Shown here one piece after another: positions 30,701-41,748 of a stretch of DNA of 42,683 nt. Source of the stretch: Betaproteobacteria bacterium (lineage in GTDB: Bacteria > Pseudomonadota > Gammaproteobacteria > Burkholderiales > Burkholderiaceae_A); the NCBI GenBank assembly GCA_016868305.1, contig VGHK01000019.1:1-42683 (forward strand), written 5' to 3'. Below the pieces are notes generated by a model, which was not told where the DNA came from, ran no database searches, and saw only the letters and a list, made by a program, of their open reading frames with translations. Position numbers and translations under genes: made by a program. The stretch's first letter is position 1, and each line of letters starts with the position of its first letter.

Positions 30701-30853
30701 GGCCCAGGCGCCGAGAGCCGCCGCGAAATTGGCTGGGTGGTGGTGGGTGGCATGAGCCTGGGCACCTTGCTCACCTTGTTCGTTCTGCCTACTATTTACG
30801 CATGGGTAGTCTCTCGCGTCTCGTCGTCCTCGATACCGAAACCACTGGCCTGA
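27755..30853 (+). CDS. RND efflux pump, inner-membrane permease (AcrB/MexF-like, HAE1)
   Basis: Proton-driven drug or solute exporter of 1032 residues. It has a first TM helix RPVFSTVLSLVLVLLGL, a porter domain beginning YPKIDEPVVTVSTNYRGASPE, given here in part (VTVSTNYRGASPE), and TM4 with the proton-relay pair LAIGLVVDDAIVVLEN. The second half has the TM block IGLVALIGLIAKNGILIVEFANQ and RFRPILMTTIAT. Substrate cannot be read from sequence. The last 52 bp overlap the dnaQ start. Co-transcribed with the preceding adaptor. Confidence 0.95.
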   Translation: MRLSQICIERPVFSTVLSLVLVLLGLVSFDRLTIREYPKIDEPVVTVSTNYRGASPEIIESQVTKPLEDSIAGIEGVEVLTSISRSERSQITVRFNLSRDPDSAASDVRDRVSRVRSRLPDGVDESVVAKVEADAQPIIWLTLNSPKLSLMELSDIGNRLVKPRLQNLPGAADVTIFGDRRYAMRIWLDRDRLAAQRVTVQDVEDALRRQNVEIPAGRVETPGREFSVMAPTDLQTPQEFAAIVLRAPQGTGALVRLGDVARVQIAPQDERRVARFRGRTTVAMGVIKQATANPLTLSQAVTDAVPSIQRDLPPDVSIEIANDNSIFIDRSIRAVAKTITEAVILVALVVFIFLRSLRASIIPIVTIPVSLISAFTILFALDYSINTLTMLALVLAIGLVVDDAIVVLENSAHHVEQGMSPEQAASRSMKEISFAVVAMTLTLAAVFAPMAFSEGRTGRLFTEFAMAMAGAVLISGFVALTLTPMMCSRLLQSPQTLQAKRAARPGLAWAHQAGDWFERGFQGVVTAYDHFLPGLLHRRKTVLLGVGLVVALGIGLFGTIKKELSPFEDRGFFVVPLSAPEGSSIDYTARYALRIEKTFEAVPEADKYFVIAGTPTVERGIAFFRPVPWEDRSRSTQQIAASLQPQLLSIPGINAFAVPPPSFGQNIRSRPIQVVVLSTAPIEQLAAVTEQLRRELIQNPMLQGVETDLQLNKPEIRIEIDRERAADLGVQVESIGRTLESLLGGRQVTRFKKGNEQYDVIVQLERRDRDTPQDIRDIYVRGRNGAPVALSSVLKFSESVSPRELNHFLQQRAVTITAGLAPGVSIGEALSMVEALAREKLPADYQLDYDGQSREYRESQSTLLFVFVLALVFIFLVLSAQFESFLHPLVILVAVPLALTGALFTIWVTKGSLNVYSQIGLVALIGLIAKNGILIVEFANQLRAQGLEVYQATHRAAVRRFRPILMTTIATVSGALPLALATGPGAESRREIGWVVVGGMSLGTLLTLFVLPTIYAWVVSRVSSSSIPKPLA

Positions 30854-31524
30854 AGCCCGAAGACGGGCACAGGGTCGTTGAGATCGGCTGCATCGAAATT
30901 CTCGGCCGTCGCCCTTCGGGCCGACGGCTGCACTATTTTCTAAATCCAGAACGAGCCATTGATGATGCGGCCATGCAGGTGCATGGGCTTACCTTAGAGC
31001 GCCTGGCCCATGAACCGGTTTTTGCGCAGATCGCCGAGGCACTTTTGGGATTCTTAAAGGGCGCCTGCCTGGTGATACACAACGCCCCCTTTGACCTGGG
31101 TTTTCTGAATGCGGAGTTCGCTCGTCTGAAGATGCCAAATCTGGCCTTCCATGGCGATATATCTGTGGTGGATAGCCTTGAGATGGCGCGGCAGATGCAC
31201 CCCGGGCAACGAAACTCTCTCGATGCTCTGTGCACGCGTTACAACGTCTCCAATAGCCATCGGCAGTTGCACGGGGCACTGCTTGATGCGGAGTTGCTTG
31301 CAGAGGTGTATCTGGCCATGACCCGCGGGCAGGAGTCTCTGGCCATGGCCACGGCCGACGACGACCCCAGCATGCCGCAGGCCAGCGATCCGGCGTTGCT
31401 ATCGCGGCTACGGGTGGTCAGGCCCTCGCCCGAGGAACTCTCCCAGCACGCGGCCTATCTTCAGGCGCTTGCCCGCGCCTGCCCACAGGGGCCTGTTTGG
31501 AACCGAACGGTGGCGGCTCCATGA
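30802..31524 (+). CDS. dnaQ: DNA polymerase III epsilon subunit (3'-5' proofreading exonuclease)
   Basis: Proofreading exonuclease of the replicative polymerase. ExoI is VVLDTETTGL with D11 and E13, ExoII is HNAPFDLGFLNAEF with D98, and ExoIII-epsilon is HGALLDAELLAEVYL with H157 and D162. The C-terminal 60 residues are the expected variable tail that binds the alpha subunit. 240 residues, like E. coli. The only suitable ATG, at 30802, lies inside the pump gene in another frame (52-bp overlap). Adjacent to rnhA in many proteobacteria; here the pump operon has been inserted between them. Confidence 0.95.
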   Translation: MGSLSRLVVLDTETTGLKPEDGHRVVEIGCIEILGRRPSGRRLHYFLNPERAIDDAAMQVHGLTLERLAHEPVFAQIAEALLGFLKGACLVIHNAPFDLGFLNAEFARLKMPNLAFHGDISVVDSLEMARQMHPGQRNSLDALCTRYNVSNSHRQLHGALLDAELLAEVYLAMTRGQESLAMATADDDPSMPQASDPALLSRLRVVRPSPEELSQHAAYLQALARACPQGPVWNRTVAAP

Positions 31525-31910
31525 TTCTGACGGTCTACCGCTCCGAGCAGGCCTACTCGGTTGCTGCCGAAGAGGTTCTCCGGGTGGTGGCGTCAGCCCA
31601 ATTCGTCCCTGCGTGGCAGGGCCCCGCGGCCTCTGAAAGCGTGTCTGGTCAGCTTGGGTTCGCGCTGGGGCAGCCAGTGCTTGCGTGTGAGCCCGAGGGG
31701 CTGCTGGGAGCAGGCAGGCTTGGCGGTGGGGCGCGCCCAGAGCAGGGGGGTCCGGTATCGCCGCTTCCTGCCCGCCATCTGGTGCTTCTGCAGTCCTGTG
31801 ATGGCGATGTTCGGCACGCGGTCTGGGCCGATGGGCTAGACTGGCAGCCGGGCGAAGAAAGATCGAATCTGGCGCAGTCAATGGGCGCGGATTCGCAGAC
31901 CCTGGGTTAG
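31521..31910 (+). CDS. Small protein, possibly a divergent CheW-like domain
   Basis: 129 residues, starting MILTVYRSEQAYSVAAEEVLR by ATGA overlap with dnaQ (only the first part resembles CheW: a strand, then YSVAAEEVLRVV). LGQPVLACEPEGLLG matches the CheW strand pattern RGxVVPVxDLxxLLG, and HLVLLQSCDGDVRHAVWADGL matches VVxxxGxxVGLLVDxV. The C-terminal strands of CheW are absent and it is 25-40 residues short. This is a guess from hydrophobic pattern, not a recognised homology. It lies 5 bp before a membrane coiled-coil gene. Confidence 0.55.
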   Translation: MILTVYRSEQAYSVAAEEVLRVVASAQFVPAWQGPAASESVSGQLGFALGQPVLACEPEGLLGAGRLGGGARPEQGGPVSPLPARHLVLLQSCDGDVRHAVWADGLDWQPGEERSNLAQSMGADSQTLG

Positions 31911-31915
31911 GGCAG

Positions 31916-32668
31916 ATGGCGGAGCAGAAGGGGCACACGATGGGCTTTTGGGTGACACGGTCTTTGGGAATGGCAGCGGGACTGCTGCTGCTCTTTGCGG
32001 CGCTGGCCTATGCGCTAGACCTGGTATTTCTGCCGCCAACGCCTGGGCAGTCCTCTGACTGGGCACCCCATTGGCGCGCCTATTCGGCGCTGTGGAACTT
32101 TGCCGAGCAGGTGGGCCGATCAGGGCTGCGCGAAGGGTTTTTCCCCTCGGTGATTCGTCGGTTTGATGACGACGGCATGCCCGCATTTTTGCCCTGGGTA
32201 GTGCTTGGTCTGTGCATGGGTATTCTCACTCTGGTGTCTCTTTTTCTCGTGAATGTTATGGGGGGCGAGCCTGCCATGCCCCAGGAGGCCCATAGCCGTG
32301 AGCCTGCGCTTGGCCCTGTTGAACCCCCGCCCGACCAGGGCAGGATTACGCGGGAGCCGCCTCTGCCATTTCCCCCTGTCTCGATTCGGGTGGCGCCTGC
32401 AACCGGTAGCGGTACCTTCACAAGAGGTCTCGAGCAGAAGCTTTATGATTCTGAGCAGGCCTTGGCCCTTGCAACGCAGTCTCTTGAGGACCTGCGACGA
32501 GCTGCCGTAAACCTGGTGCTTGACCCCACGGCGGCCCAGGTGAACCAGGATCTCAAAGAGGTGCACGATGCCCTTGATGAGCTTGAAATGGCATTTGATA
32601 AGCTGCGGGGCCAGCAGCATGCGCTGATGGCCAGTCTAGCGCAGTCCCAGGGGCAGCCATCCCGCTAA
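31916..32668 (+). CDS. Membrane protein with two TM helices and C-terminal coiled coil, unknown
   Basis: A 250-residue protein. TM1 is GMAAGLLLLFAALAYALDLVF (about residues 18-38, 21 residues; described here as a Leu/Ala-rich helix). A periplasmic loop of about 50 residues (SDWAPHWRAYSALW) follows, then TM2 FLPWVVLGLCMGILTLVSLF. After a Pro/Glu-rich cytoplasmic linker, residues 170-245 form a helical heptad-like region (YDSEQALALATQSLEDLRRA and LKEVHDALDELEMAFDKLR) ending in Gln/Ser. The layout is like a small receptor or a scaffold but no HAMP or MCP signature is present. ATG 31916 or 31940. It appears to form an operon with dnaQ and the preceding gene. Confidence 0.7.
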   Translation: MAEQKGHTMGFWVTRSLGMAAGLLLLFAALAYALDLVFLPPTPGQSSDWAPHWRAYSALWNFAEQVGRSGLREGFFPSVIRRFDDDGMPAFLPWVVLGLCMGILTLVSLFLVNVMGGEPAMPQEAHSREPALGPVEPPPDQGRITREPPLPFPPVSIRVAPATGSGTFTRGLEQKLYDSEQALALATQSLEDLRRAAVNLVLDPTAAQVNQDLKEVHDALDELEMAFDKLRGQQHALMASLAQSQGQPSR

Positions 32669-32742
32669 TTTTTGGTCCTAGACCCGCTTTGGCCTGAATT
32701 TTTGTCTGCGTTCCCTAATGGTTGCAAAAGCGTCCATAAAGG

Positions 32743-32761
32743 TTGACACTACAACCTGTCA
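32743..32761 (+). promoter_or_regulatory. TGACA-N8-TGTCA palindrome in the BLUF gene promoter region
   Basis: TTGACA (32743-32748) is a consensus -35-like box. TGACA (32744-32748) and TGTCA (32757-32761) form an 18-bp interrupted palindrome, so an operator could overlap the promoter. A -10 at the right distance is weak; the perfect TATAAT at 32777-32782 is too far (28 bp) and overlaps the ATG. Confidence 0.35.
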
Positions 32762-32780
32762 GGGAGCGCAGAATCATATA

Positions 32781-33233
32781 ATGTCGATCTTGTCCACACT
32801 GGTATACCACAGTCAGGCGGCTGAGCCCTTTAGCGAGGTCGAGCTCCTGTATCTCCTTGCAGCTGCCCGAGCGCGTAATCGCGCCGAGGGTCTTACCGGT
32901 CTCTTGGTCTATGACGAGGGTCACTTTTTTCAGTGGATTGAAGGCCCTCCGCTTTCGCTACAGCGGGTGTGGCATGCCATTCAGAAAGACAGTCGCCACC
33001 AGAATATTCGGGTGATCACAGACTCCGAGATTCCGATCCGGCTCTTTAGCCAATGGCATATGCAGTTTGCCCATCGCGGCGGTGCTGCAGCACTGCATAT
33101 CGATGGCCTGGTAGAGGCGTCTCCCGATGTCTTAGAGGCACTGCGGCAGAACCCCAATCGGGCGCCCGAAATCCTTGCCGAGTTTAGTAGCCTTGGCGCT
33201 GGACCCTTTGCTCGCAGCCTAGAGTTACGGTAA
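32781..33233 (+). CDS. BLUF-domain blue-light photoreceptor
   Basis: A 150-residue short BLUF protein binding FAD. Key residues fit the family: Tyr9 in STLVYHS (AppA Tyr21), Asn33 in ARNRAEGLTGLLVY, and Gln51 in HFFQWIEGP (AppA Gln63), with W92 and M94 in SQWHMQF. The remaining 50 residues are a helical cap with no output domain. No output partner is obvious; neighbours are the membrane coiled-coil protein upstream and a dehalogenase downstream. The start at 32781 gives the usual N-terminus; a GGGAG lies 14 bases upstream, rather far. The stop codon is formed by the first unit of a palindromic repeat (see 33221-33345). Confidence 0.93.
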   Translation: MSILSTLVYHSQAAEPFSEVELLYLLAAARARNRAEGLTGLLVYDEGHFFQWIEGPPLSLQRVWHAIQKDSRHQNIRVITDSEIPIRLFSQWHMQFAHRGGAAALHIDGLVEASPDVLEALRQNPNRAPEILAEFSSLGAGPFARSLELR

Positions 33234-33332
33234 TTACGGTGTAATTACGGTGACAGTTTAATTAATTCCCTTTAATTACGGTGACAGTTTACTTAATTCC
33301 CAGAGGGAATTAAGTAAACTGTCACCGTAATT
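33225..33332. repeat. Cluster of AATTACGGTGACAGTTTAC repeats ending in a perfect 28-bp hairpin
   Basis: A short TTACGGTAA copy makes the BLUF stop. Another partial copy follows. Unit A is 33243-33270. Unit B (33274-33301, differing from A at one base) and its exact reverse complement (33305-33332) form a 28-bp stem with a 3-base loop (AGA). The cluster fills the space between the convergent BLUF and dehalogenase genes. Related copies lie at 35101 and 41723. Confidence 0.95.
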
Positions 33333-33342
33333 TAATTCGTAA

Positions 33343-34023
33343 TTATAGTAAGAGATCGGCCAGGCTTCTGCCTTCGTAGTCAGGTGTGGCGTCGAGCTGC
33401 TCAAGTGGCTGCGACGACCGATTGACCCAGAAGGTCTTAAAGCCAAACCAATGGGCGCCGATCACGTCCCAGCAGTTCGAAGACACCATAAGTACCTCTG
33501 CCGGGGAACAACCAAACCTGTCGCAGACGAGCTGATAGACACTGGCATCGACCTTAAACCGTTTCACGGACTCGGCAGACAAGACCGCATCGAAAAGGCC
33601 ATCCATATTCGCTGACGATACGGCCGATGCCAGCATCTCAGGGCTGCCATTGGAAAGGATACATAGCGAAAGCCCTCGGGCCTTCAGTGTCTGTAACGCA
33701 GCGAGGTTTTCAGGAAAAGCCTTGAGCACCGCGTATTGGTCGAGCAGCCCTTGCTCCTGCGCCGAGGACATTGCCAGGCCCAGAGACTGTGTTGCGAACC
33801 GAAGGCTGTCGATGGTGATCTGCCAGAAAGACTTATAGCGGGTAGGCCCCGCCATTGAGCGCAGGCGCGTGTACTCAATCTGCTTGTCGCGCCATGTTTT
33901 GGCAAGCGCCGCACCCTGGCCGGGCCAGTAGCTTTCGGCCTGGGCGGTTATCGCATAGACGTCAAAGAGGGTGCCATAGGCATCAAAGGCGATTACGCGC
34001 GTACTAGGGTTTGCTTGGTTCAT
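33343..34023 (-). CDS. (S)-2-haloacid dehalogenase, type II (HAD superfamily)
   Basis: Hydrolytic dehalogenase-like HAD enzyme of 226 residues, the normal length. Motif I with the nucleophile is AFDAYGTLFDVYAI (Asp14). The family's substrate helix follows (WRDKQIEYTRLRSM). Motif II is ILSNGSPEML. The lysine is in ESVKRFKVDASVYQLV, and motif III is MVSSNCWDVIGAHWFGF. Real substrate may be a 2-halo acid or another small phosphate-free acid; glycolate is less likely given DAYGTL. Its stop lies at the edge of the repeat cluster. It is divergent from the methionine synthase gene with a 68-bp gap. Confidence 0.88.
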   Translation of the reverse strand: MNQANPSTRVIAFDAYGTLFDVYAITAQAESYWPGQGAALAKTWRDKQIEYTRLRSMAGPTRYKSFWQITIDSLRFATQSLGLAMSSAQEQGLLDQYAVLKAFPENLAALQTLKARGLSLCILSNGSPEMLASAVSSANMDGLFDAVLSAESVKRFKVDASVYQLVCDRFGCSPAEVLMVSSNCWDVIGAHWFGFKTFWVNRSSQPLEQLDATPDYEGRSLADLLL

Positions 34024-34091
34024 GCCCTGAGGATACGGGAAATCGGTTTGAAGCTGGTACCGTATGCCTTATCGCTTTTACGGAGTCATTT

Positions 34092-35111
34092 ATGTTTAGA
34101 ACCGCAATCGCTGGCAGCCTGCCGAAACCGCATTGGCTGGCAGAAACCGAAAAACTCTGGCCGGAGTGGCGCCACGAGGGCCCTGCGCTTGCGCAGGCCA
34201 AAGACGACGCTACCCTCTTGTGGATTAAGGCCCAGGAAGACGCCGGGCTCGATGTCATTGGCGACGGAGAGCAGTCGCGCCAGCACTTTGTGCACGGGTT
34301 TCTGGAGCAGGTTGAGGGCATCGACTTTAAGAACAAGGTAAAGATGGGCATCCGCAACAATCGATATGACGCGATGGTGCCGCAGGTGGTTGCCCCGCTC
34401 AAGCTCAAGGGCCGGGTGCATGCCCGTGAGGCACAGCTTGCGCGAGCCCATACCAAGAAGCTGCTGAAGTTCACGCTGCCCGGCCCAATGACCATCGTCG
34501 ACACGGTGGCCGATCGTTTTTACAACGACCGGGTGAAGATGGCGATGGCCTTTGCTGAACTTCTCAATCAAGAGGCCCTGGCATTGGAGGCCGATGGCGT
34601 GGACATTATTCAGTTTGATGAGCCTGCCTTTAATGTCTATATGCAAGAAGCCGCCGACTGGGGAGTGAAGGCCTTAGAGCGTGCGGCCCAGGGACTGCGG
34701 TGCAAAAAGGCGGTGCATATCTGCTACGGCTACGGCATTCAGGCCAATATCGACTGGAAGCAGACGCTCGGTCATGAATGGCGCCAATACGAGCAGGTAT
34801 TTCCAGCGCTACAGAAAAGCAGCATTGATCAGGTAAGCCTGGAGTGCTTCCATTCTCACGTGCCTATGGACCTTATTCGGCTTCTGGACGGCAAAGAGGT
34901 GATGGTGGGCGTAATCGATGTCGCAAGCGATGTTGTTGAAACCCCCGAGCAGGTTGCCGACACCATCGGCAAGGCCCTGCAGTTCGTACGCAAAGACCGA
35001 CTGATTGCCTGCACCAACTGCGGCCTGGCACCGATGAGCCGTGAGGTAGCGATTGCCAAACTGCAGGCACTCGCCCAAGGCGCAGCGCTCGCCGATCAGA
35101 AATTACGGTAA
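34092..35111 (+). CDS. Folate-independent methionine synthase, MesD-like (core MetE domain only)
   Basis: A 339-residue protein like the C-terminal catalytic half of MetE. Zinc ligands fit: H209 and C211 in VHICYGYG, E251 in SLECFHSH, and C307/C310 in CTNCGLAPM. TAIAGSLPKPHWL at the N-terminus and DGEQSRQHFV near residue 58, with LPGPMTIVDT and IIQFDEPAFNV, fit the MesD group described for Acinetobacter and others rather than full MetE. MesD is known to work with MesX (DUF1852); no such gene is in this window. The start at 34092 fits the family. The last codons and stop (KLR, TAA) come from an AATTACGGTAACAG repeat copy. Confidence 0.85.
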   Translation: MFRTAIAGSLPKPHWLAETEKLWPEWRHEGPALAQAKDDATLLWIKAQEDAGLDVIGDGEQSRQHFVHGFLEQVEGIDFKNKVKMGIRNNRYDAMVPQVVAPLKLKGRVHAREAQLARAHTKKLLKFTLPGPMTIVDTVADRFYNDRVKMAMAFAELLNQEALALEADGVDIIQFDEPAFNVYMQEAADWGVKALERAAQGLRCKKAVHICYGYGIQANIDWKQTLGHEWRQYEQVFPALQKSSIDQVSLECFHSHVPMDLIRLLDGKEVMVGVIDVASDVVETPEQVADTIGKALQFVRKDRLIACTNCGLAPMSREVAIAKLQALAQGAALADQKLR

Positions 35112-36334: not shown

Positions 36335-37624
36335 TCAGCCCGGCAACGGGACATTCACGCCGTCGGGGGCGTTGATAAAGGCGAATGGATTCAGAAACTG
36401 GCGCCTCCAGAACAGCGCCTGGTCCACCTCACTTAAGGCCGCCTCTGCACTGATGGACGGCCATTTCTGCGCAATGGTCTTGACCTGATGATTGACGATT
36501 TGGATGGCCTCTTGCTGGCTCAGCAGGAACACCGATGCGGCAGCAATGCAAACCCCGACTTGACTGGTCCGCTCTGCGCCACGGATGAGCATGGCTTGCA
36601 AGGCCTGCTGACCGGATCGCGATTGCGGGCAAATGTCGTAGGCGGGCGTTAAGGTCAGTTGGTGTCCGTCCCAAAACGCCGCATGGTTGCGGGCGTGGTC
36701 ATCGGTGTTGCCGCACAGGATGTTGAAGACGATTCGAGAGAACAGCTCCCGCAAGGTCGCCTTCGGATTGACGAAGCGGTGGCGAATGATCTCGGCCAGT
36801 TTTTCGTAACTGGCGAAGGCCGCCATCATTTCGTCGAGTTCGAACATCGTCGGCGCAGACACCATGGCACGCCTTTGCCAATGGCCGTCTGCCCACACCC
36901 GGTCAAAGCGCTCAATCAACAGGACATCTTTGCCCAAGGCTTTACGCAAGTGCACCGGTGCGACATCGAGCCCCACCTCGTCGGCCAACCGCATGGCCAT
37001 GAACTCCGCCTTGACCACGCTGTAGAGGTCATTGCGCGCAGAAAACTTGGCGATGAATTTGCGCTCGCCATCTTCGAGCAACACCTTGGGCCTGGCACCG
37101 CCCAGGGAAGTGCCATGCAGCAAGGCCTGATCCAATTCGGGCGAAAGTGGCATACCCCGCTCGACTTTCTCGGCAGCCATCAGCAGCTCCTCTAGTGTAG
37201 ATTGCTGTGCGTGCCTGGGTACGTACTGGGTCGCAGATTGCTGAAAATCCAGCGCACCAATTCGGTCAGAGCCTGAATCGAGTAAATAGCTCAACTCGTC
37301 CAATTCAACCAGGGCGGCATCCCCGCCCTTGATGCCCGATTTGCGATTGACCAGCACGCGCCGCCCCCATGCATCTGGCGATGCATCGCGAATGCAGCTG
37401 GGCATGTTCAAGCCCGGCAGCAGCGCAAGGGCCCCGGGGCGCAGCGGCAACTCTGGCGCATAGAGGGCGATCGCGTCCGGGCGGGCCAGATAACTGCGAC
37501 CGTAGTTAAAGACGAAAGTGCCACCTTGTTGGCTGAGCAAGCCGGCCACCACAGGCTCTGTGGCGCCGGGTAGCCAGATCCAGACGTAGGCCTCTGAATA
37601 TGGGGCATCTTTCTCAGAAGTCAT
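36335..37624 (-). CDS. hipA: HipA-family kinase toxin (copy 1)
   Basis: A 429-residue HipA-like Ser/Thr kinase. N-terminal couple domain near residues 10-110 (VWIWLPGATEPVVAGLL). HGTSLGGARPKVLLED is the glycine-rich loop region and KFIAKFSARND holds the ATP-site lysine. LLIERFDR, then NILCGNTDDHARN with the catalytic Asp and Asn, and LTPAYDICP as the Mg-binding DFG-like site. Arg replaces the usual Lys in HARN. E. coli HipA phosphorylates glutamyl-tRNA synthetase; the target here is unknown. It overlaps hipB by 11 bp, translationally coupled. Confidence 0.88.
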   Translation of the reverse strand: MTSEKDAPYSEAYVWIWLPGATEPVVAGLLSQQGGTFVFNYGRSYLARPDAIALYAPELPLRPGALALLPGLNMPSCIRDASPDAWGRRVLVNRKSGIKGGDAALVELDELSYLLDSGSDRIGALDFQQSATQYVPRHAQQSTLEELLMAAEKVERGMPLSPELDQALLHGTSLGGARPKVLLEDGERKFIAKFSARNDLYSVVKAEFMAMRLADEVGLDVAPVHLRKALGKDVLLIERFDRVWADGHWQRRAMVSAPTMFELDEMMAAFASYEKLAEIIRHRFVNPKATLRELFSRIVFNILCGNTDDHARNHAAFWDGHQLTLTPAYDICPQSRSGQQALQAMLIRGAERTSQVGVCIAAASVFLLSQQEAIQIVNHQVKTIAQKWPSISAEAALSEVDQALFWRRQFLNPFAFINAPDGVNVPLPG

Positions 37625-37952
37625 CTTTCACCCCTTTGGTACGCGTTCTGACGGCTTTGGGCATCAAGGCCATTTTTTCTCGGTGCAGTGCCAGATGGGT
37701 GGTCAACTGCCGTTGCTCCTGATCAAACAGCGGCACGCCACACAGGGTGGCCACCTCGAACACCACGCCAATCGAACACCCCGGGTCTCCGCGCTCGATG
37801 CGTTGCAGCAAGGCCCGTGAAATGCCTGCGCGAGCCGCCAGATCCATCGTGGTCATGGCCTTGCCCAAGCGCGCTTCACGCACGAGTTGGCCCAGCAAGG
37901 CCAGCGCATCCAGGCTGTACTGAGAGAGGGGGCGGGAGACTGGCTTAACCAT
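37614..37952 (-). CDS. hipB: HipB-like XRE antitoxin/repressor (copy 1)
   Basis: 112 residues with an HTH: LVREARLGKAMTTMDLAARAGISRALLQRIERG, seen here as AMTTMDLAARAGISRALLQR. C-terminal tail is basic (RTRTKGVKDDF). Its small size and coupling to hipA mark it as antitoxin and repressor. Start 37952 (MVKPVSRP) is preferred; ATG 37964 lies in the operator palindrome. The probable operator is at 37960-37971. Confidence 0.8.
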   Translation of the reverse strand: MVKPVSRPLSQYSLDALALLGQLVREARLGKAMTTMDLAARAGISRALLQRIERGDPGCSIGVVFEVATLCGVPLFDQEQRQLTTHLALHREKMALMPKAVRTRTKGVKDDF

Positions 37953-37959
37953 AAAAAGA

Positions 37960-38006
37960 CTCATTAATGAGCCATGAATACTGACCATGCAACATTTATG
38001 AGTCAT
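37960..38006 (-). promoter_or_regulatory. Probable hipBA-1 promoter and operators
   Basis: CTCATTAATGAG (37960-37971) is a perfect 12-bp palindrome covering a -10-like CATTAA on the minus strand; TTGCAT (complement of 37987-37992) lies 17 bp upstream as a -35. A second palindrome ATGAGTCAT is at 37998-38006 and a half-site TTAATGAG at about 38066. Fits HipB autoregulation. The transcript start would be only a few bases before the hipB ATG. Confidence 0.55.
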
Positions 38007-38033
38007 TGTCTTGCTGAACCAAGACAAAGTCAA

Positions 38034-38278
38034 TTAGCTGAGTTACTAACAAGTCAGAAAGCTCTTTGGGGTCTGTTAATGAGCCATTTGACGCAAGAGC
38101 GCGAAGCTCAGGCTGAAAACCCAAACAGCCTGCGCTGCTCAGCCTAGTCCCGAGGCAACGGCTTATGCCGGCCTCGCAGCGCTTGCAACTTGAGATACCG
38201 AGGTCCGTGTGGGCATACTAACCTCCCTCGAAATCTATTGGCAGAATATGCCAACCCAGTCGACACAGGTCAATTCGA
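38034..38278. other. Intergenic, between hipB and BrnT remnant
   Basis: No gene seen in about 245 bp. It contains the outlying TAATGAGCC half-site near 38067 and should hold more of the hipBA-1 upstream region. BrnA, the antitoxin that normally follows BrnT, is not present here. Confidence 0.5.
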
Positions 38279-38536
38279 TTACTTTCCAATCCAGTGGGGC
38301 AGTGAGGAAAGATTCGGATGATTGTCCGGTTCGCTCGAAAGCCGCTCTATCCCGATTACAAGGAACCGACCATCGATACGGCCGGTCACTTCGTAACGCT
38401 CTTCGCCATAGCTGTATCGGGTATCTTCTTCAACCAATCGATTCGGATCGAAAAAGACGCGAGCAGCAAAGGCAAAATCGAAGCGCCGCTCCCGAAAACA
38501 CGCTTCGCTTTTGGCCTCATCCCACTCAAAGTTCAT
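38279..38536 (-). pseudogene. Degenerate BrnT-like toxin
   Basis: The first 60 codons read as BrnT: MNFEWDEAKSEACFRERRFD, then FAFAARVFFDPNRLVEEDTR and GEERYEVTGRIDGRFLVIGI. After ER the expected DTIRIISAR ending is absent; another frame shows TIIRI at about 38315-38330, so a frameshift near 38325-38345 is likely. No BrnA downstream. I treat it as an inactivated orphan remnant. Confidence 0.6.
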
Positions 38537-38595
38537 GGACAGAGTGTAGTCCATTGAACCACCTTAAAACTTATGTCCATGAGACAGCCCTAAGT

Positions 38596-39855
38596 CTATA
38601 TACTTGCTAGCCGCCGAATCGTCAGGGCGCAGCGTTGTTCAATCAAGGTGTTGATTTGCTCAACCAAAGCATTGCCAGCAAAACTGTGTCCGGGCTCAGA
38701 CTGGAGCTTGCGAGCCGTCGCAGGCAGTAACTTTGCCAATTCCATAATTCGCCGTTTGGTCTGAGCCTTGGTAAAGCCTACACCTTCGGCGAACTGCTCC
38801 CATTGCCTCGCCTGGACTTCGCTGAACTTGTACTTGCTGCCGATTTTCATCGCCATCTTTTGCGTTAGTGTTGGATACACCGCTGTCGAGAGCGTGTCGT
38901 AAATCGGTGCCAGAACGGGGGCCTTGTCTGAATACAGTAGGGAGAAATTTTTGGCGTGCGCATCATGATTGCCAATGAGCGCATTGAAGATCACGTAGTC
39001 GAGCAGTCGCAGGACTTGCGGCGCACTGGGTCGTGTCGCACTGCGCACCAGATCAAAACACTGCGCCAGATCCGGGCCACCTTCATTCTGGTATTTCATT
39101 TCCGGCACCACGCCAAGTGCCTGGCAAAAGTCCTCTTGATGAAGCCGTTGCCGTTCCCCCAGAGCATCGATCAGTCGGTCGTAGCGCTCAACCAGTAGAA
39201 GGGAGCGATCCAACACCCGGTGAACTTTTGATTTAGCTGGCTTGAGTTGCATGGCCTCAGCCAGTGCCATGCAAAATCCTTCGTTGATCACGCTGTCTTC
39301 AACGGCGTGGATGGCCGGTTTCAGGATGTGGGAGCTAGGCGTGCCGTTGAGGGGAAGCCCGATGCACGCACCATCGAAAACCACTGGCAACTTGTCTTGG
39401 GTACCCGCCAAGGAGAGTCGAAAGCCGTCTGTGCCTGCCAGCATGGGGCGACGCGGCAATTCATCCAGGATGGCAACGACTTCCTCGTCGCTCAGCCATT
39501 GAACGTCATCGCTGCGGGTCGGCACAGGCAAAGCCTGCCCCGGTTTAAGGAAGGTCACAGCCCCGGCACATTCGCCACCGATGTGGTCTAGCAGCGCAAA
39601 GTCGTTCTGACCGGAAACCTGGAACTGCTGGGCAATGAGGCGGCGCATCTGACCTTCGGGTAGAAGACCAGCAAAGAAGGGACGCGTTTTGCGATCATCG
39701 AACGGTTCCGCTTGCAGCGGCAGTGAGGCGGACAAGGCCACAGCGTCTTTGAGTGACAGCCAACCTGGTGCGTAGCAAAAGTTAAGTCGCCCATCGACCA
39801 GCGCCAAAGTGCCGACACGATCGGCGAAAAGCCAGACGTCCAGCTCATGGGCCAT
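38596..39855 (-). CDS. hipA: HipA-family kinase toxin (copy 2)
   Basis: A 419-residue classical HipA. It has VWLFADRVGTLALVDGRL, FFAGLLPEG, RLSLAGTQDKLPVVFDG (with the P-loop serine region), SSHILKP with the ATP lysine, LLVERYDR, HQEDFCQALGV and the catalytic LIGNHDAHAKNFSLLY, then LAPIYDTLST. All canonical motifs are intact, so activity is expected. It overlaps hipB-2 by 11 bp, the same as copy 1. The two HipA proteins are of different subfamilies, not recent duplicates. Confidence 0.92.
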   Translation of the reverse strand: MAHELDVWLFADRVGTLALVDGRLNFCYAPGWLSLKDAVALSASLPLQAEPFDDRKTRPFFAGLLPEGQMRRLIAQQFQVSGQNDFALLDHIGGECAGAVTFLKPGQALPVPTRSDDVQWLSDEEVVAILDELPRRPMLAGTDGFRLSLAGTQDKLPVVFDGACIGLPLNGTPSSHILKPAIHAVEDSVINEGFCMALAEAMQLKPAKSKVHRVLDRSLLLVERYDRLIDALGERQRLHQEDFCQALGVVPEMKYQNEGGPDLAQCFDLVRSATRPSAPQVLRLLDYVIFNALIGNHDAHAKNFSLLYSDKAPVLAPIYDTLSTAVYPTLTQKMAMKIGSKYKFSEVQARQWEQFAEGVGFTKAQTKRRIMELAKLLPATARKLQSEPGHSFAGNALVEQINTLIEQRCALTIRRLASI

Positions 39856-40105
39856 GGTCGTCATCCTCACCTTGATCGTCGGACGCAACTGATGGCAATC
39901 CGGTCAAATGGATTTCACCGCCTAGGGCGTCAATGACCCGCAGTACGTTTTCCAGCCGCAAGGTGGGCTTGCCTGCTTCAAGGTCGACAATGAAGCGCAC
40001 ACCCACCCCAGCGGCCAGCGCCAACTGGGGCTGGGTCAGCGCGAGCTGCTTGCGAGCGGCACGCAGTGCACGCCCTAGTTGTTGAGGTGATCGAATAGAT
40101 GCCAT
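39845..40105 (-). CDS. hipB: HipB-like XRE antitoxin/repressor (copy 2)
   Basis: 86 residues: SIRSPQQLGRALRAARKQLA, then LTQPQLALAAGVGVRFIVDL and EAGKPTLRLENVLRVIDALG, a standard XRE-HTH. The acidic C-terminus (SDDQGEDDDHGP) is a likely disordered tail. It represses its own operon in known systems; three matching palindromes lie upstream. Confidence 0.88.
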   Translation of the reverse strand: MASIRSPQQLGRALRAARKQLALTQPQLALAAGVGVRFIVDLEAGKPTLRLENVLRVIDALGGEIHLTGLPSVASDDQGEDDDHGP

Positions 40106-40117
40106 GGCTTGCTCAGC

Positions 40118-40231
40118 TTCCCGTTCGGGAAATTATTCGACAAAATCTAACCAAGTGCAAGCTATATTTCCCGAATGGGATATTTAGAGTAGTTTGGACA
40201 TGATTCGGACTACTAATTCCTGATCGGGAAA
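40118..40231 (-). promoter_or_regulatory. Three evenly spaced hipBA-2 operator palindromes
   Basis: TTCCCGTTCGGGAA (40118-40131) is a perfect palindrome around a 2-base centre; TTCCCGAATGGGAT (40168-40181) and TTCCTGATCGGGAA (40217-40230) are close variants. Centres are 50 and 49 bp apart. The first lies 13 bp upstream of the hipB-2 start. Confidence 0.8.
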
Positions 40232-40259
40232 TAGTGATACTTTTGATCCCAAATTGACA

Positions 40260-40511
40260 CCCATTTACATCCAATACGTAATCGGTCTCCAGAAATGCAG
40301 AAGCCACCTAAAGGTGGCTTCGCGCCCAGCCACCGAAGTCACGTGGTTACCCGGTACGCCAGCAAGCAGGCCTAGGGTCGTCTCGGTGCCTTCCGCAGGT
40401 GCTTCATCGGTTGCCTTGTGTCATCAGTTGCGCACGATTGATAGAGCGCGCATTGGCAAGCAAAGCGGTGAACTATCCGCAACGGAACACGCACGAATGG
40501 GTGTAAATGGG
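40260..40511. mobile_element. Second MITE-like segment, 252 bp
   Basis: CCCATTTACATCCAATAC at the left (40260-40277) and CGAATGGGTGTAAATGGG at the right (40494-40511) are imperfect inverted repeats with the same end sequence as the pair at 36028-36208. Interior holds a hairpin, no coding region. Confidence 0.4.
40300..40321. repeat. Perfect hairpin GAAGCCACC-TAAA-GGTGGCTTC
   Basis: Nine-bp arms with a 4-base loop. No T-run on either side, so a terminator is doubtful. It lies inside the 40260-40511 segment. Confidence 0.6.
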
Positions 40512-40703
40512 CGGGTTCTTAGATTATGGCGAATCGAACGCGATTGGCATCAGCGCGCCGTGCTCGTAAGAGTATTAAGTGTGCTTATAAACTGCCCCCA
40601 TAATTGATGGTGTGTAAACTTTGCTGGTAGGCTGGTGACAAGTTTCGAACCAATTCTCCCGGCGCCTCGGTACCGCTGGGCCATGGCCAGCCGAAAGAGC
40701 GGG

Positions 40704-40750
40704 TTCCATTTTGGTCCCTTATGGTCTATAATAGCCTCGAAAAGGAGGCT
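40704..40750 (+). promoter_or_regulatory. Promoter and ribosome-site hairpin of the ParD/RelE operon
   Basis: TTCCAT (40704-40709), 17 bp, TATAAT (40727-40732). AGCCTC (40733-40738) and GAGGCT (40745-40750) form an inverted repeat whose right arm includes the AAGGAGG ribosome site. It could be an operator for the antitoxin or a leader hairpin blocking translation. Confidence 0.6.
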
Positions 40751-40753
40751 CTT

Positions 40754-40963
40754 ATGGCCATCAATGTCAAACTTTCCGAAGCCTTGGTTGAGACCGCCAA
40801 GCGCTATGGCACCATCGAGCACCGCTCGGTGCCCAAGCAAATCGAATACTGGTCTAAGATCGGAAAGATCGCCGCAGAAAACCCTGATCTCCCGTTCAGT
40901 GTCATCCGCGATATCCTGATCGCTGACCAAGAAGAGCCCGTGGGTGAGTACCAGTTCGGCTGA
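40754..40963 (+). CDS. ParD-like antitoxin
   Basis: 69 residues starting MAINVKLSEALVETAKRYGT, then IEHRSVPKQIEYWSKIGKIA and AENPDLPFSVIRDIL. It matches the ParD-like antitoxin family (TA_antitoxin ParD type) with an MA-N-VKLSE start and QIEYW core. The stop overlaps the toxin start (TGATG). AAGGAGG ribosome site 7 bp upstream. Confidence 0.85.
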   Translation: MAINVKLSEALVETAKRYGTIEHRSVPKQIEYWSKIGKIAAENPDLPFSVIRDILIADQEEPVGEYQFG

Positions 40964-41241
40964 TGCGCATCCTTATAACACCAACCTTCGAGCGCGCCGT
41001 TAAAAAGCTGCACAAGCAGCAAAAAGCTACGATTGACGAGGCGGTTCGAACTATCGTCGGTCAACCGGAAGCCGGCGAAACTAAAGTCGGCGATCTGGCT
41101 GGCGTGCGTGTCTATAGGTTCCGCATGGACAACCTGATGTGCCTACTTGCCTATCGCGTTCTGGATGACAACACACTCAAATTGCTGATGGTCGGTCCGC
41201 ACGAGAATTTTTATCGCGACCTCAAACGCACCGAGCATTGA
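40963..41241 (+). CDS. RelE/ParE-family toxin
   Basis: 92 residues: ILITPTFERAVKKLHKQQKA, then TIDEAVRTIVGQPEAGETKV and GDLAGVRVYRFRMDNLMCLL. The RelE/ParE fold pattern (GDLAGxRxYRFR, LLAYRV, LKLLMVGPHENFYRDLKR) is clear. Likely an mRNA endonuclease-like toxin of the YafQ/HigB side of the family; target not readable. Coupled by 1-bp overlap to the ParD-like antitoxin. Intact. Confidence 0.88.
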   Translation: MRILITPTFERAVKKLHKQQKATIDEAVRTIVGQPEAGETKVGDLAGVRVYRFRMDNLMCLLAYRVLDDNTLKLLMVGPHENFYRDLKRTEH

Positions 41242-41722: not shown

Positions 41723-41748
41723 AATTACGGTGACACTTTGCTGAATGC
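41723..41748 (+). repeat. Copy of the gene-end repeat after the vapC remnant
   Basis: AATTACGGTGACACTTTGCTG followed by AATGC starts right behind the vapC TAG stop. Related to 33243-33301 and 35101-35128. Confidence 0.75.

Follow-up and report, generated by a model that had tools for sequence, protein, structure and literature searches.

What do two genes of no named family do between dnaQ, which encodes the epsilon subunit of DNA polymerase III, and a gene for a stand-alone BLUF photoreceptor? The question is raised by a contig of 42,683 nucleotides (nt) (C19, hereafter the window) from genome G000, an assembly of 2.26 Mb in 97 contigs that is 97.45% complete. The first of the two genes encodes a protein of 129 amino acids (aa), termed X, and the second a membrane protein with two hydrophobic spans, termed TM; in most relatives a further gene, Y, lies between TM and the BLUF gene. 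The usual order dnaQ-X-TM-Y is kept in all three genera of the family. We read X, TM and Y, tentatively and with a little less than an even chance of being right, as a diverged, kinase-less, chemosensory-like membrane scaffold coupled to a detached BLUF protein of the AppA type. The features of the window are as follows.

30802-31524, forward strand: dnaQ (DNA polymerase III epsilon; TIGR01406 dnaQ_proteo, E 1e-81), the upstream neighbour
31521-31910, forward strand: X, 129 aa, ATG start, with a predicted CheW-like fold (AlphaFold2, Foldseek, VIA and profile comparison)
31916-32668, forward strand: TM, 250 aa, with two hydrophobic spans, a proline-rich linker and a hairpin-like helical tail, presumably cytoplasmic (hydropathy, 25-row alignment)
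32501-32527, forward strand: tip of the hairpin-like TM tail, AAVNLVLDP, with its Asn codon at 32510-32512 (25-row alignment)
32669-32780, forward strand: gap of 112 nt between TM and BLUF, the slot of Y in most relatives (gap table)
32781-33233, forward strand: stand-alone BLUF gene, on the AppA side of the tree; its product ends in a conserved tail of about 50 residues (PF04940, alignment of 12, tree)

Gene order, distribution and copy number

Family f1, an uncultured family of Burkholderiales, was represented by 26 genomes in three genera, namely the genus of the window, the UBA954 genus (g2) and a third genus. X was found in 21 of these genomes, including all 10 of high quality. Fifteen of the 21 had supplied rows to the search profile, and four of the six new ones belong to the third genus, where X lies directly after dnaQ and before TM and Y in G041, G014 and G012. 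In G016, also of the third genus, X occupies the same dnaQ-X-TM-Y slot though the profile search missed it; a weak new match in G003 (E 8e-4) is likewise in that slot. The local open reading frame (ORF) list of G018 shows TM and Y and no X. Y, a protein of about 220-270 aa whose gene follows TM and precedes BLUF where BLUF is present, was found in 22 of the 26 genomes (14 had supplied rows) and additionally in G012 by local search. In wider searches, nine of 300 genomes of the order matched X and 12 of 399 matched Y, all of them members of f1, and the one X match among 369 genomes of the class was the window's own genome. Within the genomes searched, the module is therefore restricted to this family. 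Among the titles and abstract beginnings listed from the open-licence literature, none describes this gene set.

The genes of the module are closely packed. The X start overlaps the dnaQ stop through the sequence ATGA and TM begins 5 nt past X, as described in the initial annotation, which had called X and TM two unrecognised genes tightly coupled to dnaQ. In 18 loci measured, the X-TM gaps range from -67 to +12 nt and the TM-Y gaps, where Y is present, from -23 to +41 nt, some starts and hence some overlaps being those of mechanical ORF calls. Y and BLUF, in the eight loci holding both genes, are 58-91 nt apart. The BLUF gene of the window most likely starts at the ATG at 32781, which is preferred over an alternative at 32718 because its relatives begin there in the alignment.

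Proteins with at least 59% identity to this BLUF occur in five of the 11 genomes of the window's genus, in all seven of the UBA954 genus and in none of seven of the third genus, in a search that left out G041. In each of the 12 genomes carrying it, across two genera, the module lies directly upstream on the same strand. Nine of the 12 loci have an intact X-TM-Y-BLUF series; the window lacks Y between TM and BLUF, unlike most relatives, in G017 a contig ends within Y and divides the locus, and in G019 Y is present as two matched pieces. The co-occurrence of X, TM and BLUF in relatives, which the initial annotation had named as a check of its cassette, is thus observed in the same order and strand in all 12 genomes. 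The cassette itself stands in so far as X and TM precede this BLUF in all 12, and falls in so far as the module can exist without BLUF, as it does in G001, G002, G003 and G009, on contig 13 of G008 and in the third genus.

The cassette had further been described as linked to dnaQ, which holds for the close coupling of the genes and not for a functional link. The role of dnaQ as a functional partner was rejected because three other genes separate dnaQ from X in four loci of the UBA954 genus (L080, L081, L083 and L229), and the link to X and TM is probably one of shared transcription only.

A second X-TM-Y set, whole or partial, is present in G004, G006, G008 and G010. Next to the paralogous Y of G004 and G008, on its downstream side, a membrane protein of 486-495 aa is encoded; it appears by eye to contain a PAS domain, and no Pfam match was obtained for the G004 protein or for its homologue in G000. 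The paralogous locus of G004 continues with genes for a response regulator of the LuxR type and a histidine kinase, and with one whose product is homologous to TssC, the sheath protein of G000. The type VI region of G000 (TssF, VipB) correspondingly holds Y, the homologous membrane protein, the regulator and the kinase, without X or TM. This Y (C3:80230-80922) is the only one found in G000 and belongs to the paralogous locus; in trees it groups with the Y proteins of type VI loci (92/90, just under the mark of the tool), and the window X groups with the X proteins of dnaQ loci (97/92). A second X row in G000 (E 0.097, 26% identity) was judged to be chance. In genome G000, X, TM and Y are therefore each left in a single copy, spread across two loci, with the reservation that contig gaps may hide further copies, and this remainder of one copy each fits all three being needed together. 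The recurring unit is X-TM-Y, and the sensors adjacent to it vary.

Several smaller observations concern these loci. Besides the X-TM-Y set of contig 13 and a TM-Y pair on contig 42, G008 has an extra X-Y pair without TM on contig 15 (L071 73-1125). In the UBA954 genus (L080 1884-4719; L081, L083, L085 and L229) three genes lie upstream of X; in L080, where their identities were scanned, they encode a YkuD L,D-transpeptidase and two proteins that share a Cds6_C NTF2-like domain, one of the HTH and one of the TPR type, and the other loci were matched to it by position. In the window, the dnaQ start sits within the end of an upstream RND pump gene, with an overlap of 52 nt (30802-30853).

Predicted structures of X, TM and Y

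Neither Pfam nor NCBIfam lists a family for X, even at E values as high as 5, and a search of plasmid records gave no name. PDB sequences searched with the X and Y profiles gave best E values of 0.053 and 0.54, respectively, both judged to be chance. The AlphaFold2 model of X (19 sequences, mean pLDDT 81.6, pTM 0.72) consists of nearly all strands, nine in number. Compared with the PDB by Foldseek, its ranks 1-9 are all CheW or CheA (E 0.013-0.34, probability 1.00-0.80) and the next row falls to E 1.8 and probability 0.03, although no row reaches E 0.001 and the TM-scores are below 0.5. By VIA, the first 11 rows are all CheW or CheA (Z 6.9-5.1) and the next row has Z 4.1. Values of Z below 8 may reflect a common structural arrangement; X is nevertheless read as CheW-like because of the wide score gap and the single fold family above it.

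When the alignments were widened to 25 rows for X, its profile scored 21.6 against that of CheW (P 0.0052 in one of 15 query-target pairings tried), and the match runs collinearly from one end of X to the other. All 150 column shuffles fell short of this score (mean 9.8, maximum 16.3) and the reversed alignment scored 12.6. Adding CheA P5 sequences to the CheW set weakened the match to P 0.057. The alignment covers about residues 10-120 of CheW and the VIA rows end near CheW residue 110-121; therefore the C-terminal part of CheW is unmatched in X.

X thus resembles CheW and the P5 domain of CheA (PF01584) in its predicted fold, collinear over about 100 residues, and resembles CheW further in that its gene adjoins that of a two-span protein with a hairpin-like tail. 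It differs in having no PF01584 match, in lacking a counterpart of the C-terminal part and in the NLRG stretch of CheW, which is shortened to GxxxGxPV. No CheA or CheW was detected in the genome: G000 has no match to PF01584, which also detects CheA, at E up to 1, and no match to PF00015. Across the family, PF01584 was over cut-off in two of 25 genomes examined and MCPsignal in three of 26, so that by these searches most members have no detectable chemotaxis genes. The model makes a strong case for a CheW-like fold of X, and the predicted structure (Foldseek ranks 1-9, VIA rows 1-11) bears out the suggestion of a possible CheW-like domain in the 129-residue protein, which the initial annotation had proposed to check in this way.

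Hydropathy places the two hydrophobic spans of TM within residues 13-42 and 94-112. They are followed by a linker of variable length and then by about 75 residues resembling two helices and a turn. Many rows have NLxLDPxG at the turn, and the Asn and the second Leu of the tip are invariant in all 25 rows and are the most conserved positions of the protein. Against Pfam and NCBIfam, TM gave only weak matches of coiled-coil type (best E 0.04) and none to PF00015; the initial annotation had described it as a two-TM protein with a cytoplasmic coiled coil. Chemoreceptor tips bind CheW and CheA. TM is similar to the methyl-accepting chemotaxis proteins (MCPs; PF00015) in its two spans and in a hairpin-like tail on which conservation peaks at the tip, whereas this hairpin is short, its NLxLD tip is not that of an MCP, and both a PF00015 match and profile similarity are lacking. 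The conservation of the tip would be expected if, by analogy with receptors, the tip binds a partner.

The model of Y (15 sequences, pLDDT 79.1, pTM 0.71) begins with a helix at the N-terminus, continues with a helical hairpin at 49-89 and a region of mixed structure at 90-172, and closes with five strands at 176-230. CheA chains fill Foldseek ranks 1-5 (E 0.02-0.16, probability 0.30-0.18, low TM-scores), and VIA places 182 residues of Y collinearly on CheA 293-668 (Z 6.3, root mean square deviation 5.3). CheA (P3-P4-P5) is thus the best structural match of Y, though a weak one, with a possibly shared domain order, but Y is about 235 aa long as against about 380 aa for P3-P5 of CheA, and has no HATPase match, conserved His or sequence support. 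Three Y proteins scanned gave no Pfam match, including none to HATPase, and in the 24 Y rows neither a His nor a GxG is invariant or nearly so. When Y was compared by part, the P5-like end stood above all 40 shuffles against CheW (P 0.069) and the P3-like part above all 40 against a mixed CheW/P5 set (P 0.33); the remaining 13 of 15 pairings did not stand out. As a whole, the sequence tests of Y against CheA are at shuffle level, and the likeness is therefore drawn from the modelled structure. The prediction of a CheA-like Y is weak, and we put it at about even odds that Y is a CheA derivative, mainly because X, tested separately, indicates the same system.

The BLUF protein and its photosynthetic context

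The BLUF protein matches PF04940 (E 1.4e-26, 92.8 bits against a cut-off of 25) and stops at about 150 aa; a second domain of the SCHIC/B12 type is absent. The flavin-pocket residues that we take to be photochemical, Tyr9, Asn33, Gln51, Trp92 and Met94, are invariant in all 12 aligned BLUFs. The protein is accordingly what it had been taken for from the outset, a stand-alone BLUF with all photochemical residues and no output domain.

The best solved relatives in the PDB are AppA structures. Outside the family, many of the nearest BLUF proteins are long ORFs; in six that were scanned BLUF was present in all, followed in five by B12-binding or AppA_SCHIC matches, all below curated cut-offs. In a tree of 91 rows the stand-alone BLUFs of the family (11 rows) form one group (100/97). 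A split with 95/85 support places them with the long AppA-like ORFs and 14 short BLUFs of the Paracoccus type, apart from 20 other short BLUFs, and their position inside the 57-row AppA group is poorly supported (80/25). Judged from these sequences, the BLUF appears to have become detached from AppA. It shares with AppA, the BLUF-SCHIC antirepressor of PpsR, a place on the AppA side of the tree and a genome containing PpsR, but differs in lacking the SCHIC/B12 domain, the B12-binding gene being separate and beside ppsR.

Reaction-centre genes are present in 19 of the 26 family genomes, including all 10 of high quality, and PpsR is over cut-off in 23 of the 26. In G000, PpsR was identified by TIGR02040 (E 1.4e-135), reaction-centre genes are also present, and a B12-binding, PpaA-like gene lies directly before ppsR. 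The parts for an AppA-like role are therefore present in this genome, with the BLUF and the B12 sensor apart. A clean joint loss of module and photosynthesis was considered and rejected: G007, in which X, Y, BLUF, reaction centre and PpsR are all absent above cut-off, fits it, and G041 and G024 contradict it.

The PpsR box, which we take to be TGTC-N10-GACA, was not found near the module in the window or in nine loci of relatives. The looser TGT-N12-ACA occurs zero to four times per locus and lies inside or beside module genes in L083 and L084. The only strict site is at position 5147 of L250, immediately ahead of two G000 genes, the PpaA-like one and ppsR.

According to two reports, AppA serves the control of photosynthesis genes by PpsR (PMC4844311, PMC10890935), and the second of these describes a LOV protein, LdaP, of Dinoroseobacter shibae as an antirepressor acting on PpsR (PMC10890935). 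LdaP is comparable to the present BLUF in being a blue-light protein without AppA architecture, but it is a LOV protein, and PpsR binding by this BLUF is a candidate activity only. In Spongiibacter nanhainus a BLUF gene lies directly beside chemosensory genes (PMC8805636). That cluster is alike in that BLUF adjoins chemosensory-type genes; it differs in that the neighbours are ordinary che and motA/B genes (PMC8805636), whereas here no CheW-domain or MCP-signal gene is detectable.

Proposed mechanism, its rivals and the downstream region

In the scaffold reading, X, TM and Y would form a small, strongly diverged complex of the chemosensory type at the inner membrane. TM would take the part of the receptor, with its two spans and a hairpin with a conserved tip, and X, being CheW-like, that of the coupling protein. 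Y may be a shortened, non-catalytic CheA with dimerisation-like helices, a reduced middle and a P5-like end. Such a complex would transmit or localise a sensory signal as an allosteric or recruiting scaffold; a kinase relay is not proposed because searches of the genome brought up neither a CheW/CheA-type protein nor an MCP signal domain. Where the module ends in a BLUF gene, as in some members of the family, BLUF would supply blue-light or redox input, and the likeliest output would be control of photosynthesis genes through PpsR/PpaA, expected as the target because of the known role of AppA (PMC4844311, PMC10890935). The light-responsive receptor complex suggested in the initial annotation is thus a plausible one. 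A broader form of the scaffold reading, in which the module is a miniaturised, kinase-less chemosensory core unit that present family models miss, encoded by a near-core operon in a family of anoxygenic phototrophs, duplicated and paired with either an AppA-derived BLUF or, next to type VI secretion genes, a PAS-like membrane protein and a two-component system, is possible though on balance doubtful.

Several observations weigh against the scaffold reading. An initial test of the X profile against a set of eight CheW sequences showed no similarity, and the later P value of 0.0052 belongs to one of 15 pairings. For Y, the Foldseek probabilities are just 0.18-0.30 with an unrelated row at 0.44, unrelated VIA rows reach Z 5.1, within about 1 Z of CheA, and 13 of 60 shuffles score as high as Y against whole CheA. 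The tail of TM against MCP profiles was equalled by two of 60 shuffles, and this comparison was not used because its reversed control scored higher. As to the light input, the third genus and half of the window's genus have X-TM-Y but not this BLUF. Of 281 BLUF matches, 80 loci were examined, and in the 70 of these that come from other families neither X nor Y lies nearby. As to the output, G041 has X and Y although reaction centre and PpsR both fall short of the cut-off, and G024 has reaction centre and PpsR and no X or Y.

The main rival takes the BLUF to be independent of X-TM-Y, a sensor split off from AppA that acts directly on PpsR/PpaA and has inherited its position, the module having another input. 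We consider this unlikely, though a serious candidate. Besides the existence of the module without BLUF, it draws on the position of this BLUF on the AppA side of the tree, taken with a PpsR match over cut-off in 23 of the 26 family genomes, on a distance of 58-112 nt from the preceding gene, whereas the other genes nearly overlap, and on the action of the LOV protein on PpsR in Dinoroseobacter shibae (PMC10890935). Adjacency in all 12 genomes of two genera, kept in the window despite the loss of Y and the usual downstream genes, argues against independence, as does the fact that in the genomes examined BLUF never occurs without the module, though half of the window's genus has the module only.

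It is improbable that X, TM and Y form an unrelated membrane complex, such as a scaffold linked to envelope or secretion, with their CheW and CheA matches reflecting common beta-barrel and alpha/beta arrangements. The lack of a sequence-family match for X and Y, Z values below 8, the lack of profile support for Y-CheA and TM-MCP and the paralogous set beside type VI secretion genes would suit such a complex; but the nine best matches of X all share one fold and stand far above the tenth, its CheW profile score tops all 150 shuffles, and X and Y, folded separately, indicate the same system. Still less probable, and in our estimate very unlikely, is that the window locus is a decaying remnant in which Y was deleted and X, TM and BLUF no longer cooperate. 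The missing Y between TM and BLUF, a palindromic repeat after BLUF and the absence here of the relatives' downstream genes point that way, but X, TM and BLUF are open and intact, TM keeps its invariant tip, and one Y is retained elsewhere, leaving one copy of each part.

Chemosensory arrays are usually regarded as kinase machines. If the scaffold reading is true, a kinase-less set of CheW-like, receptor-like and CheA-like proteins would represent a scaffold retained for another use, and would mean that profile searches are not sensitive enough to reveal such systems. The detached AppA-type BLUF would show how a two-domain regulator of photosynthesis may be dismantled, and makes it testable whether light input to PpsR requires the second domain.

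The window locus seems to be rearranged downstream of BLUF. Right after BLUF, at 33242-33335, lies a repeat beginning TAATTACGGTGACAGTTTA, with two direct copies of 29 nt and one inverted copy; its palindromic arms are 31 nt long with a loop of 3 nt, and a weaker copy is found at 41724. Four matches to this repeat were counted against 0 expected by chance, and it could be a terminator or the end of a mobile element. The following region, 33343-35111, encodes a type II haloacid dehalogenase on the reverse strand and then a MetE-like methionine synthase. These genes differ from the two that trail the module in several relatives, which we take to be argA- and hrpA-like. Further downstream, at 36335-41241, ORF translations indicate small genes that presumably resemble toxin-antitoxin pairs (HipA/HipB-like, RelE/ParD-like and BrnT-like).

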